DNA from: Hymenobacter oligotrophus
GTDB lineage: Bacteria > Bacteroidota > Bacteroidia > Cytophagales > Hymenobacteraceae
NCBI RefSeq assembly: GCF_003574965.1
Contig: NZ_CP032317.1
Location: forward strand, 2,542,001-2,606,000
Length of the DNA: 64,000 nt
Direction: 5' to 3'
A program made the translations under genes and the position numbers. Below are positions 12,910 through 56,897 of the stretch, one piece after another (position 1 is the first letter of the stretch; each line of letters starts with the position of its first letter). The notes under the pieces were generated by a model that saw only the letters and a list, made by a program, of their open reading frames with translations, searched no databases and was not told the DNA's origin.

Positions 12910-12993
12910 TACCAGAGACGGGAATCGAACCCGTACTTCCTTGCGGAAAAGGGATTTTAAGTCCCTCGTGTCTACCAGTTCCACCACTCCGGC
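12910..12993 (-). tRNA. tRNA-Leu(UAA)
   Basis: The 84-base gene starts GCCGGAG on the minus strand, has a D-arm with TGGTAGACACG, the anticodon loop CTTAAAA (anticodon TAA), a long variable arm of class II tRNA, and a T-arm with GGTTCGATTCC. The acceptor stem closes with two G-T pairs and a discriminator A. CCA is not encoded. It decodes UUA (and UUG by wobble), which is rare in this GC-rich genome. Confidence 0.95.
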
Positions 12994-13011
12994 GAGTGCA
13001 GCGAACCTGCA

Positions 13012-13019
13012 CAAAAGTA
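13012..13019 (-). promoter_or_regulatory. -7 element TACTTTTG for tRNA-Leu
   Basis: TACTTTTG on the minus strand matches TAnnTTTG and lies 18 bases upstream of the tRNA-Leu 5' end. A TTG that could serve as the -33 element falls 21 bases further upstream, inside the terminator stem of the preceding tRNA-Gly. Confidence 0.6.
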
Positions 13020-13053
13020 AAAAAGGACGTTGCAGGGAGCAACGTCCTTTTTT
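13019..13053 (-). terminator. Terminator of the first tRNA-Gly
   Basis: A 15-base perfect stem (13019-13033 with 13039-13053) with a 5-base loop starts two bases after the tRNA-Gly 3' end; its outer part reads as a T run on the minus strand. Confidence 0.85.
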
Positions 13054-13055
13054 GG

Positions 13056-13128
13056 AGCGGGAGACGAGGTTCGAACTCGCGACCTCGACCTTGGCAAGGT
13101 CGCGCTCTACCAACTGAGCTACTCTCGC
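13056..13128 (-). tRNA. tRNA-Gly(GCC), copy 1
   Basis: The 73-base gene reads GCGAGAG-TA-GCTC... on the minus strand, with anticodon stem CGACC/GGTCG around loop TTGCCAA (anticodon GCC), T-arm GCGAG-TTCGAAC-CTCGT and 3' acceptor CTCCCGC plus discriminator T. The fourth acceptor pair is A-C rather than a Watson-Crick pair, and the same mismatch is present in the second copy. CCA is not encoded. Confidence 0.95.
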
Positions 13129-13162
13129 TTGAGGTCAACCGCCGTAGTGGCGTTTGATGGCA

Positions 13163-13170
13163 CAAAGGTA
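13163..13170 (-). promoter_or_regulatory. -7 element TACCTTTG for tRNA-Gly copy 1
   Basis: TACCTTTG on the minus strand lies 34 bases upstream of the tRNA, with a TTGAC-like element 21 bases before it, consistent with the Bacteroidota -33/-7 promoter. Confidence 0.7.
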
Positions 13171-13238
13171 CAACAAGACGTTTCTTGTTGTCAAGAGTCA
13201 AGCGAAAAATCTGATTCGCTTGCTCTCCATTAAAACAA

Positions 13239-13272
13239 AAAAGAGGAAGCTACCGAAGCAACATCCTCTTTT
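13239..13272 (-). terminator. Terminator of the second tRNA-Gly
   Basis: A 9-base stem (13239-13247 with 13264-13272) begins one base after the tRNA 3' end; the distal arm continues into T residues on the minus strand. Weaker than the terminator of copy 1. Confidence 0.6.
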
Positions 13273-13273
13273 G

Positions 13274-13346
13274 AGCGGGAGACGAGGTTCGAACTCGCGA
13301 CCTCGACCTTGGCAAGGTCGCGCTCTACCAACTGAGCTACTCTCGC
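13274..13346 (-). tRNA. tRNA-Gly(GCC), copy 2
   Basis: The sequence is identical to copy 1 over all 73 bases, including the A4-C69 acceptor mismatch. The 5' flank (13347-13389) repeats that of copy 1 with one inserted T, so gene and promoter were duplicated as one unit of about 115 bases. Confidence 0.95.
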
Positions 13347-24554: not shown

Positions 24555-25052
24555 ATGGCCGACCTGCCCGACGTGAGCACCCTGGTGGCGCTCTACGACC
24601 AAATCAACAATTACGGCCGCACCAACGGCATGAAGCTGACGGTGCACCGGCCGGGCCACGTAACCTACACCATGCGCATACGCGACGAGCACTTGTCGTC
24701 GCCGGGTACGGCACACGGGGGTATCGTGGCCGGCCTGATGGATGCGGTTTTAGGTGCGGCAGCCCTCACGCAGGCCTTCACCGAGCAAGAGTTTGTATCG
24801 ACGGTCGAGTTCAAGATCAACTACCTGCAGCCCGTGCACTTGGCCGACGAGTTGGTGGCTCACGCCGAGGTTGCGCACCACGGCAAAAGCCTGGTAGTAG
24901 TAAACGGCCGCATCGAGTGCCCCGCGCGCGAGGCCTTGGTGGCGGTGGGCCTGGGTACCTTCAACCGCTACCCCGCCACCAAGCGCGATTTTGTGCGCGC
25001 CGTAGCCAGCCAGTTGGGCCTAGGTGAAAAATGGGTGACAGGTGACAGGTGA
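24555..25052 (+). CDS. Hotdog-fold thioesterase (PaaI-like) ending inside a heptamer array
   Basis: The 165-residue protein has the PaaI-type hotdog fold: HLSSPGTAHGGIVAGLMDAVLGAAALTQ carries the catalytic HGG region, followed by STVEFKINYLQPV. It should hydrolyse an acyl-CoA thioester. The last residues WVTGDR and the TGA stop come from a 7-base tandem repeat that starts at 25034. Because the unit is not a multiple of three, any copy number of at least three leaves the same C-terminus, so array length changes would not alter the protein. ATG 24555 removes an 11-residue extension. A TAAC-TTTTG stretch at 24512-24520 resembles a -7 element with one extra base. Confidence 0.87.
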   Translation: MADLPDVSTLVALYDQINNYGRTNGMKLTVHRPGHVTYTMRIRDEHLSSPGTAHGGIVAGLMDAVLGAAALTQAFTEQEFVSTVEFKINYLQPVHLADELVAHAEVAHHGKSLVVVNGRIECPAREALVAVGLGTFNRYPATKRDFVRAVASQLGLGEKWVTGDR

Positions 25053-25182
25053 CAGGTGACAGGTGACAGGTGACAGGTGACAGGTTGGTACTGCTGCCTT
25101 AGCGCCGGGTTACGCCACAACGTTGTTATGCCGAGCGCGGCGAGGAATGACAAACGACGTGTTACGTGTCACTTGTCATCTG
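25034..25182. repeat. Composite heptamer repeat, copy 1
   Basis: Seven perfect units of GGTGACA occupy 25034-25082. After 19 bases comes the core GCGCCGGGTTACGCC (25102-25116). At 25155-25182 four 7-base units (CGACGTG, TTACGTG, TCACTTG, TCATCTG) are degenerate copies of the same heptamer in the opposite orientation. The block lies between convergent genes and overlaps the end of the thioesterase gene. A second copy with another heptamer but the same core is at 56048-56306. Confidence 0.8.
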
Positions 25183-25205
25183 CCTCCCAATACCACCCCA
25201 AACGC

Positions 25206-54743: not shown

Positions 54744-56048
54744 ATGTTTGTGCCCGCTTCGCCGCCTTCCTCACCTCCGGTTCGTTCCGCCGCTGCCCGC
54801 ATCCGCTCCATCGTGAGCGGCTCCATCGGCAACCTCGTGGAGTGGTACGATTGGTACGTGTACTCGGCTTTTGCTTTGTACTTCGCGCCGTCGTTTTTCC
54901 CGCAGGGCAACCTCACAGCGCAGCTGCTCAACTCGGCTGCCATTTTTGCGGTGGGCTTTTTGATGCGGCCCCTCGGGGGTTGGCTGCTGGGCCTTTACGC
55001 CGACCGCCACGGGCGCAAAGCAGCCCTGCTGCTCTCGGTGCTGCTGATGTGCGGCGGCTCGCTGCTGATTGCCCTTACGCCCGGCTACCAGCGCATTGGC
55101 GTAGCAGCACCCGTACTGCTGGTGTTGGCGCGGCTGCTGCAGGGCCTGAGCGTGGGCGGCGAGTACGGCACCTCGGCTACGTACCTCAGCGAAATGGCCA
55201 CGGCCCGGCACCGGGGTTTTTATTCCAGCTTTCAGTACGTAACGCTGCTGGCGGGGCAGTTGCTGGCCTTGCTGGTGCAGTTGGCTTTGCAGCGCCTGCT
55301 TACCCCTGCTGCCCTGCACGATTGGGGCTGGCGCGTGCCTTTTGCCATTGGGGCTTTGGCTGCCGTAGTGGCGCTGTACCTGCGCCGGAGCATGCACGAA
55401 ACCGAGGCCTTTGTGCAGCAAACCGCCCACCCAGCCGCCGCCGAAAGCAAACTGCGCGCCCTGCTGCGCCACCCGCGCGAGCTGCTAACGGTGGTGGGCC
55501 TTACCCTAGGTGGCACCATTGCGTTTTACACCTTCACGACCTACGCCCAAAAGTTTTTGGTGAACACCGCCGGCTTCAGCAAGGCCGAGGCCACGCAAAT
55601 ATCGTTTTGGGCCTTGGCGGTGGCGTTGCTGCTGCAGCCGCTGATGGGCGCCCTATCCGACCGCGTGGGCCGGCGGCCGGTGCTGCTGTTTTTTGGCGTG
55701 GGCGCTACCCTGGGCACGGTGCCCCTGCTTACGCTGCTGGCCCAAGCCCGTAGCTCGTGGGCGGCGTTCGGGTTGCTGGCGGTGGCCATGGTGATCATGA
55801 GCGGCTACACTTCCATCAACGCCGTGGTAAAAGCCGAGTTGTTTCCGACGCACATCCGAGCCCTGGGGGTGGGCCTGCCGTACGCGCTTACGGTAGCCAT
55901 TTTCGGCGGCTCGGCCGAGTACGGTGCTTTGCTAGCCAAAAGCCAGGGCATAGAAGCCGCGTACTACTGGTACGTAACGGCTTGTGCTGCCCTCTCGCTG
56001 TTGGTGTACTGGCGCATGCCCGATACCAAACAGACATCGAGGATTTAG
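54744..56048 (+). CDS. MHS-family (KgtP/ProP-like) major facilitator permease
   Basis: The 434-residue protein has 12 membrane helices and the typical start of metabolite:H+ symporters (GSIGNLVEWYDWYVYSAFALYFAPSFFP). Other family motifs are LGLYADRHGRKAALLLS between helices 2 and 3, RLLQGLSVGGEYGTSATYLSE and SDRVGRRPVL. Relatives carry alpha-ketoglutarate, citrate, proline or betaine; the substrate is not predictable. The last codon is followed directly by the heptamer array, whose first unit shares the G of the TAG stop. The start at 54744 is the only reasonable ATG. Confidence 0.92.
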   Translation: MFVPASPPSSPPVRSAAARIRSIVSGSIGNLVEWYDWYVYSAFALYFAPSFFPQGNLTAQLLNSAAIFAVGFLMRPLGGWLLGLYADRHGRKAALLLSVLLMCGGSLLIALTPGYQRIGVAAPVLLVLARLLQGLSVGGEYGTSATYLSEMATARHRGFYSSFQYVTLLAGQLLALLVQLALQRLLTPAALHDWGWRVPFAIGALAAVVALYLRRSMHETEAFVQQTAHPAAAESKLRALLRHPRELLTVVGLTLGGTIAFYTFTTYAQKFLVNTAGFSKAEATQISFWALAVALLLQPLMGALSDRVGRRPVLLFFGVGATLGTVPLLTLLAQARSSWAAFGLLAVAMVIMSGYTSINAVVKAELFPTHIRALGVGLPYALTVAIFGGSAEYGALLAKSQGIEAAYYWYVTACAALSLLVYWRMPDTKQTSRI

Positions 56049-56306
56049 GTATTGGGTATTGGGTATTGGGTATTGGGTATTAGGTATTAGGTATTAGGTA
56101 TTAGGTATTAGGTATTAGGTATTAGGTATTAGGTATTAGGTATTAGGTATTAGGTATTAGGTATTAGGTATTAGGTATTAGGGTGTATGACCGTTCGGGC
56201 GCCGGGTTGCGCCCTTTGGCTCCTTTTTCTGTTTTTTAACTAACTACTCAATACTTAGTACCAACCACCCAGTACCAAATACTCACTACTAAATAGCCAA
56301 TCTACA
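56048..56306. repeat. Composite heptamer repeat, copy 2
   Basis: Nineteen heptamers occupy 56048-56180: four of GGTATTG, then fifteen of GGTATTA. After 18 bases comes the core GCGCCGGGTTGCGCC (56199-56213). From about 56237 to 56306 ten 7-base units (TAACTAA, CTACTCA, ATACTTA, GTACCAA and so on) follow the consensus nTACnnA, the degenerate reverse complement of the direct array. The element fills the space between two convergent stop codons and overlaps both. The organisation and core are shared with 25034-25182. Confidence 0.88.
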
Positions 56307-56697
56307 TCTGGCGCAGCCAGGCGCTGGCGGTATCGATGTCGTCGAACGTTAGCACGAGCGGGCGCTCCGTGTGGCTCATCATCAAGTCGGTGGAGAGGCG
56401 GCTGTACACGTTGGGCGAGTACACCCAGGCGAAGTACTCCAGGCCGGCCGCGGCCATGGCCGGAAACCACACCTTGCCGCCCCACTCCGAAGCATCGGAC
56501 CACATGCTGGTAACGTTGCGGTTGTCGTTGAGGACTTTGTGGCAGCGCTCCTGCTTCAGGCACTCGAGCATTTGCAGGCAGCCGTTGCGCACCGAGTCGA
56601 AGTCTTGGTCGCCGGTCCAGTCGACGTACAGCCACTCGTTCAGGTAATCGTAGGCAATGGCAACGTGGTTGTTCTGGTAAATCGTTTTCAGGGCCAT
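56302..56697 (-). CDS. STAS/SpoIIAA-like protein, paralogue 4
   Basis: The 131-residue protein shows the family pattern most clearly: WLYVDWTGDQDFDSVRNGCLQMLECLKQ, CHKVLNDNRNVTSMWSDASEWGGKVWFPAMAAAGLEYFAWVYSP, and FDDIDTASAWLRQM at the end. Residues shared with the others are the W-x-Y-x-x-W strand, K-V/L-L-N-D, the W-x-P loop, AGL-x-Y-F-A and the final WL. Its 3' end is reached by the inverted heptamers of the adjacent repeat. The start MALKTIYQNN at 56697 removes 17 residues. Confidence 0.8.
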   Translation of the reverse strand: MALKTIYQNNHVAIAYDYLNEWLYVDWTGDQDFDSVRNGCLQMLECLKQERCHKVLNDNRNVTSMWSDASEWGGKVWFPAMAAAGLEYFAWVYSPNVYSRLSTDLMMSHTERPLVLTFDDIDTASAWLRQM

Positions 56698-56797: not shown

Positions 56798-56897
56798 CCT
56801 AGGGCGTGTGGGCAGTAGCGCGGAAATCCGTTGGCTACGCCGCCATATGCTCCGCGCTACATCTTCACTGCTGTGCCTACTCTCCACACGCCCTAGG
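56798..56897. repeat. Inverted repeat with CCTAGG ends and GTAGCGCGG core
   Basis: CCTAGGGCGTGTGG (56798-56811) and its exact complement (56884-56897) frame an inner pair GTAGCGCGGA (56815-56824) and TCCGCGCTAC (56851-56860). The inner pair belongs to the same family as the repeats at 35292 and 36674. It lies directly after the stop of the DUF4136 gene. Confidence 0.75.

Follow-up and report, generated by a model that had tools for sequence, protein, structure and literature searches.

Intergenic palindromes with tandem heptamer arms at gene ends in a bacterial genome and its relatives

Cyanobacterial STRR are tandem heptamers, as are the arrays described here, and we know of no inverted-pair rule for them. 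REP/BIME sequences, to which RAYT (Y1 transposase) genes are linked, are extragenic palindromes that avoid the gaps between divergent genes. An inverted layout of heptamers has been reported by Rehm et al. (2015; PMC4692102), whose paper, in the parts drawn on here, deals with the heptameric repeats GGGAATC and GGGGA(C/T)T of Xanthomonas and Nostoc. These parts describe convergent inverted GGGAATC pairs (70 in Xcc and 75 in Xac); the Xanthomonas repeats are intergenic, lie within 50 bp of stop codons and overlap them, are rare between divergent genes and keep their position while length and sequence vary, and no function was found according to the same parts, which also mention a Calothrix case of STRR heptamers and cite a 2007 study that gives slippage tied to polymerase contact length as a reason for heptamers. 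The portion of MacGregor (2015; PMC4679880) used here describes TAACTGA direct repeats in Beggiatoaceae, Cyanobacteria and Bacteroidetes, which in the main genome mostly precede start codons and of which one case is inverted. No description of heptad hairpins in Bacteroidota was found in the titles and abstract openings of the open-licence papers retrieved. The inverted heptamer layout itself is known from Xanthomonas, and what is added here is a class from another phylum in which the heptads are many.

The window, that is, the whole stretch of 64,000 nucleotides that was analysed (G000:C1:2542001-2606000), belongs to the 4.19-Mb genome under study (G000), and coordinates without a prefix are those of the window. 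The plus-strand gene of an MFS transporter (54744-56048; Pfam PF07690, E=6.6e-37) ends with a TAG stop codon (56046-56048) at which the 5' arm of the element begins. This arm (56048-56180, plus strand) comprises 19 tandem heptamers GGTATT(G/A), four GGTATTG followed by 15 GGTATTA (19.7 copies with 98% matches in TRF), and it lies 18 bases before the 15-base core GCGCCGGGTTGCGCC (56199-56213), exactly as an earlier note on this DNA had described it. The intervening 18 bases, GGGTGTATGACCGTTCGG (56181-56198), are part of a dispersed cassette that is common to the paralogous locus L002. Together with its pairing bases, the core reads as a GC hairpin, GGGCGC-CGGGTT-GCGCCC (56197-56214), the counterpart of which in L002, GGGCAT..GTGCCC, preserves the pairing. 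A T-rich stretch (56215-56239) with a weak likeness to an intrinsic terminator follows on the 3' side, and then the 3' arm (approximately 56241-56296, minus strand), in which degenerate copies of this heptamer family run in the opposite direction; the inverted arm of the earlier note is present, with eight units in a single register rather than ten, and none of 2000 shuffles of the 65-base stretch equalled its heptamer match. Beyond it lies a convergent minus-strand ORF (56302-56697) that matched no Pfam family. When RNA folding was compared with 200 dinucleotide shuffles, the plus strand surpassed 199 of them (z -3.1) and the minus strand 196 (z -1.9). A search of the 64-kb window with Rfam at the gathering score gave nothing besides three tRNAs, and hence no structured-RNA match at the element; the three tRNA genes lie on the minus strand at 12910-13346. 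A separate inverted repeat, CCTAGGGCGTGTGG ... CCACACGCCCTAGG, is found at 56800-56895, between the next two genes.

Another locus in the window, the first of the two, follows the same plan of array, core and inverted arm, and the order and the opposed orientations of the parts, which had been noted earlier, recur at several loci while the heptamer differs, being GGTGACA here instead of GGTATTA. The 5' arm (25034-25085, plus strand, TRF) contains the end of a thioesterase gene (24555-25052); the core-like sequence GCGCCGGGTTACGCC lies at 25102-25116 (plus strand), and a degenerate inverted GGTGACA arm at about 25157-25189 (minus strand). Both window loci are located between convergent genes. 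At this locus the orthologous genes of G000 and of the related genome G007 both end inside the array, and a further relative, G004, has a 30-base gap without an element. A different palindromic repeat, of GTCATGCTGAGCTTGTCGAAGCATC or GTCATTCCGAGCGCAGCGAGGAATC type, is enclosed by, or lies next to, hairpins of the GGTGACA type in L051 (18049-18387) and in L124 (near 6700), as if one repeat occupied the loop of another.

Inverted heptad arms form a wider class, most members of which lack the core of the finding locus. The census covered 1.264 Mb (the window and 60 further stretches), or 30% of the genome, with genes from our own calling script and therefore approximate gene edges. In the intergenic DNA of 864 kb, a period of 7 is prominent, with 29 arrays at the 19-of-28 level compared with at most 7 for each of the other lags from 3 to 13, and with harmonics at lags 14 and 21; arrays of period 8 are also slightly raised in this DNA. 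With up to three mismatches, the pattern RGTAYTGRGTAYTGRGTAYTG matched 119 times in the genome, versus 5 times for the reversed control. When no partner was required, 46 arrays were found at the 18-of-28 level, and a partner in the same gap was inverted for 38, direct for 5, reversed for 2 and complementary for 16, a count in which the two arms of one element are separate arrays. Among the 804 gaps of at least 40 bases in the 1.264 Mb, 282 contain an inverted repeat with arms of at least 18; the arms have a period of 7 (0.5 level) in 28 of these, while lags 5, 6 and 8-12 yielded 0 to 3. One GC-rich case (L058:19035) was dropped and three intermediates were left out, giving 27 heptad elements and 251 non-heptad controls, and extrapolation by proportion leads to about 90 heptad hairpins in the genome.

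The heptad arrays in the arms of the 27 elements are 21-73 nt long and belong to many families, among them GTAYTGR, GTRACA, AATNAAN, AACTGAY, GAAKGAR, GGGCTTA and AATTCTG (named by eye). Each family, again judged by eye, keeps one strand as the 5' arm, and this polarity is reflected in base composition: the 5' arms are C-poor (C 0.09, G 0.30), with G exceeding C in 25 of 27, one tie and one reverse case (p 8e-7), compared with C 0.31 and G 0.30 in the 251 control repeats, of which 101 are G-rich, 136 C-rich and 14 tied. The own opposite arm was the best match for an arm in 13 of 19 elements and another arm matched better in the remaining 6; a register test is biased by the choice of the best register, and the likeness of the arms rests instead on this comparison and on that of orthologues. 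Some elements (L009 and L114) have differing heptads in their two arms. The folding z-scores of the elements average -6.5, a circular value, as the elements were selected as inverted repeats.

The elements are closely associated with gene ends. Of 32 gene ends at the elements, 25 have a stop codon that is overlapped by an arm, whereas for the control repeats the number is 50 of 304 (p 1.5e-12). The median arm position at the 32 stop-side edges is -5, and the elements fill a median of 88% of their gap. The restriction to convergent genes that the two window loci had suggested does not hold for the class: its gene contexts are 12 ++, 8 --, 6 +- and 1 -+, so that 20 of the 27 elements lie between co-directional genes. 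With 282 ++, 219 --, 141 +- and 162 -+ among all 804 gaps, it is the divergent context that is under-represented (1 of 27 versus 162 of 804, Fisher p 0.027). At element edges, 9 of 32 stop codons are TGA, versus 109 in 1026 genes. Stop codons in three frames were considered as a purpose of the 7-base unit, an idea that was dropped since some 5' arms (L076:6190) seem to be devoid of stops over long stretches.

The core had been taken as the conserved part of the element. As a free-standing 15-mer it is rejected, its matches in the whole genome with up to two mismatches being at chance level (226 versus 246 for the pattern read backwards); a core-like 16-mer with up to three mismatches had 23 matches in the window versus 15.2 expected, and 4 of 100 shuffles had as many. 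A version of ~50 bases, by contrast with the 15-base core alone, is a dispersed cassette. It was represented by a 55-position sequence model built from ten loci (six in G000 and four in G007), with which the best 150 candidates per genome were scored. At E < 1e-3 there were seven matches in G000, six in G007 and none among the best 150 candidates of each of the other six genomes of the genus. Three of these 13 matches lie outside model building (L348 in G000; L345 and L346 in G007). The earlier note would have been refuted by a core that occurs mostly without arrays, and for the ~50-base model this is not the case: all three of these independent matches carry arrays. Of three weaker matches inspected, one has arrays as well, namely L349 (G003, E 0.027), where a different heptad is arrayed on either side, and two lack them, L347 (E 0.004) and L350 (E 0.047).

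Flank identity on both sides confirms the orthology of L002/L345, L011/L346, L348/L113 and L009/L114 (0.82-0.92) and that of L004/L349 (0.74-0.79). The heptamers turned out not to be simply locus-specific, because a heptamer that some loci of G000 have in common gives way to a different common one at the corresponding loci of the sister species. Thus, GGTATTA in G000 is replaced by GGTGTTA in G007 both at the finding locus (A) and at L002/L345 (B), and AGGAGTT in G000 by TTAGCTG at L011/L346 (C) and by TTAGGGC at L348/L113 (D); L009/L114 has a degenerate CAGCTAAC type in G000 and TTAGCTG in G007, and the first locus (F) has GGTGACA in both. Over the first 45 bases, which all core comparisons at loci A-F cover, cores A and B are 0.89 alike within G000 and 0.84 within G007, compared with 0.71 and 0.69 to their respective orthologues; for C and D the values are 0.87 (G000) and 0.73 (G007), compared with 0.69 and 0.73. 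Averaged over loci A-E, paralogous cores are 0.74 (G000) and 0.80 (G007) alike and orthologous cores 0.71, and locus F has the opposite trend, with orthologous cores that are 0.89 alike. The cores of the two window loci are distant relatives (0.71 over 45 nt), and other pairs are no worse. Some cores are homogenised within a genome, and several cassettes are closer to paralogues in their own genome than to their orthologues; at A-D the homogenisation is clear only in part. Cores that are alike within a genome and less so between orthologues suggest that the cassette was copied between some loci while its position remained unchanged.

At orthologous gaps, the heptads of the two arms often change jointly, as can be seen by eye at several loci. 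At L065:13113, G000 has GTACTGA-type arms, G007, G004 and G006 have TCAGTTG-type arms, and G005 another kind; at L087:3551, GAAKGAR in G000 and G005 is replaced by AATTCTG in G007 and G006; at L076:10790, GAAKGAR in G000, G007 and G005 by AATGAAC in G004; and at L087:7009, AATGAAC in G000, G007 and G004 by GTGAAAT in G006. The finding locus has GGATTAA arms in G005 and a similar hairpin with short arms in G004, and no clear heptads were seen by eye at this locus in G006, G002, G003 and G001. By score, the relative has a heptad-like inverted repeat in 21 of 41 ortholog comparisons (two of the 41 with short or empty gaps). In 10 of these 21, from 7 of 13 loci, the two within-locus scores are each higher than either of the between-species scores, although some of the 10 are marginal (20.5 versus 20), comparisons at the same locus are not independent and one case (L066 in G005) is by eye a plain terminator; the concerted pattern is absent in the other 11. 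The conservation of pairing is weak. In the ortholog comparisons (8 of 24 skipped as too diverged), 60 of 150 changed base pairs still pair and 90 are broken, and selection on pairing must be called unproven because most changes break pairs, even if 21 of 31 double changes still pair versus 4/9 expected under uniform change (p 0.008). The element at L085 is 0.91 identical to G007 and about as conserved as its flanks (93-94%), and that at L064 is 0.95 identical between flanks of 90-92%; the latter is a GAAKGAR hairpin (L064:7305-7396, counterpart L314 in G007).

A bidirectional terminator had been proposed for the two window loci, and the core of the finding locus, where a T-rich stretch comes after a GC hairpin of 6 bp, was missed by the terminator scan and is weakly present under a looser one. 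L066:6639 even encloses a canonical terminator, which is also found in G004 without heptad arms, and the avoidance of divergent gaps would agree with such a role. For most of the class the proposal fails: a terminator-like hairpin with a T tail is found in 2 of 27 heptad elements (0-1 after shuffling) versus 83 of 251 controls (5 after shuffling), and the 10 bases beyond the outer 3' arm contain 2.3 T on average, for which reasons intrinsic termination is rejected for the class. The prevalence of co-directional neighbours also argues against it, and bidirectional intrinsic termination is improbable. That the repeats act as G-quadruplexes, as proposed for GGGAATC of Xanthomonas, is extremely improbable; the C-poor, G-bearing strand does point inward, as in the parts of PMC4692102 used here, but four GGG runs per arm occur in 1 of 27 elements and four GG runs in 8. 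A role of the transcribed element as an RNA hairpin is likely. Our preferred explanation, held tentatively and with less than even confidence, is that the element is one of a genome-wide set of stop-anchored intergenic palindromes, or heptad hairpins, which would be self-templating, grown by slippage and mirrored between arms, and for which an RNA role like that of REP/BIME is expected. The arms, as tandem 7-base arrays, would grow and turn over through slippage by 7 nt, and the other arm would receive a mirrored unit pattern when the hairpin is copied across, by template switching within the palindrome, so that both arms switch heptad together. Some cassettes may have been copied between loci by ectopic conversion or transposition, by which one heptamer and core would spread within a genome. 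Array growth would halt at coding sequence, with the stop codon usually inside the arm, and the transcript would carry a long stem-loop at the mRNA 3' end or between cistrons, where 3'-end protection and blocking might be expected rather than intrinsic termination.

Confidence in the heptad-hairpin explanation is slightly lowered by a Y1-type transposase gene near one core locus and by the small number of independent core matches. Four genes of this type (PF01797; RAYT-like by eye) are present in the genome (L351-L354, at G000:C1 2752372, 1164529, 420668 and 394512), and that at 420668 (L353) is located about 1.5 kb from core locus D. They bring into play a non-autonomous mobile element, MITE-like or REP/RAYT-like, in which a transposase acting in trans moves or replaces the hairpin, whose arms have the heptads as repeats within them. 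Dispersed copies with a common core and the empty 30-nt gap of G004 at the GGTGACA locus would fit, yet the termini are not constant and differ between elements, positions persist while sequences change, and the four Y1 loci of about 3.2 kb each contain no period-7 array, a weak objection, given that the array of locus D starts just outside, 17 bases past the end of L353; such an origin is unlikely, if by no means far-fetched. The hairpins might also be a purely mutational by-product of heptanucleotide slippage and palindrome-templated repair in unconstrained DNA, without a role and placed wherever selection tolerates them. The extent to which they fill their gaps and stop at coding edges, their scarcity between divergent genes, which fits purging from promoters, and the weak constraint on pairing all agree with this, while the element at L064, more conserved between G000 and G007 than its flanks, speaks weakly against it, as only two loci were compared; we consider it a credible but unlikely account. 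It is highly improbable, finally, that the elements stem from an activity that writes repeats in a 7-nt register, adding C-poor heptads to the 3' ends of either side, head to head like fused telomeres, or writing them on one side, with mirroring by hairpin-primed synthesis; if it were true, a self-templating genetic element of constant polarity would be spreading in the intergenic DNA of several phyla. The interpretation offered by the earlier note is, as a whole, partly supported.

Similar arrays occur beyond the genus. TAACTGA x3 is found in public genome contigs at no fewer than 110 loci, many of them from the same genera. Among the matches listed, 111 arrays were analysed for partners (17 more, at contig edges, were dropped), and an inverted partner with a score of at least 12 lies upstream of 30 and downstream of 3 of the 111, versus 13 and 1 in the reversed control; at a score of 16 the numbers are 12 and 1, versus 0 and 0. 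Because the partners are mostly upstream, TAACTGA is the 3' arm where pairs occur, as in G000. No partner at score 12 was found for 79 of these 111 listed arrays, inverted partners (44) are no more frequent than direct ones (51) for the 285 period-7 arrays (score 17) of the listed loci, and the excess of G over C is weaker there (27 to 13, with 4 ties). Cyanobacterial inverted pairs in L242 (Mastigocoleus) and L198 (Okeania) have a 5' arm of GTAATGG/GTAGTGA or GAAGGAA, which resembles families of G000. The GAATGAR pattern matched in 10 of 198 genomes of the phylum; among 12 loci inspected, facing arrays (score at least 14) are present at 5, in two genomes, 4 of the 5 being near-copies on one contig, a further locus has an inverted score of 17 beside a direct score of 16.5, and the remaining loci are without facing arrays.

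Inverted pairs of a single heptamer had stood alone as a peculiarity of Xanthomonas; these results make of them a class that comprises many heptads and is found in another phylum, separate the inverted layout from G-quadruplexes, and reveal arms that often change together. Why heptamers are so frequent in the longer simple repeats of bacteria becomes testable with closely related strains. Heptad hairpins are extragenic palindromes like REP/BIME, but no conserved palindrome of 20-40 bp in many copies was seen in them: the family and sequence of the arms vary from one locus to the next, and what several loci have in common is the core subset alone (7 loci in G000). With the TAACTGA repeats, as described in the portion of PMC4679880 used here, they share the AACTGAY family and the mixing of heptads in intergenic regions, whereas AACTGAY in the present genome is the 3' arm of hairpins and not a direct repeat. 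The suggested link to heptameric repeats is best borne out by the geometry in the parts of Rehm et al. (2015; PMC4692102) considered: there as here, the heptads are intergenic, in inverted pairs with the C-poor strand pointing inward, close to stop codons and rarely between divergent genes. Those parts describe one G4-capable heptamer, whereas the genome studied here has many heptads, mostly not G4-capable, both arms of which switch family between species, and a subset with a dispersed core.
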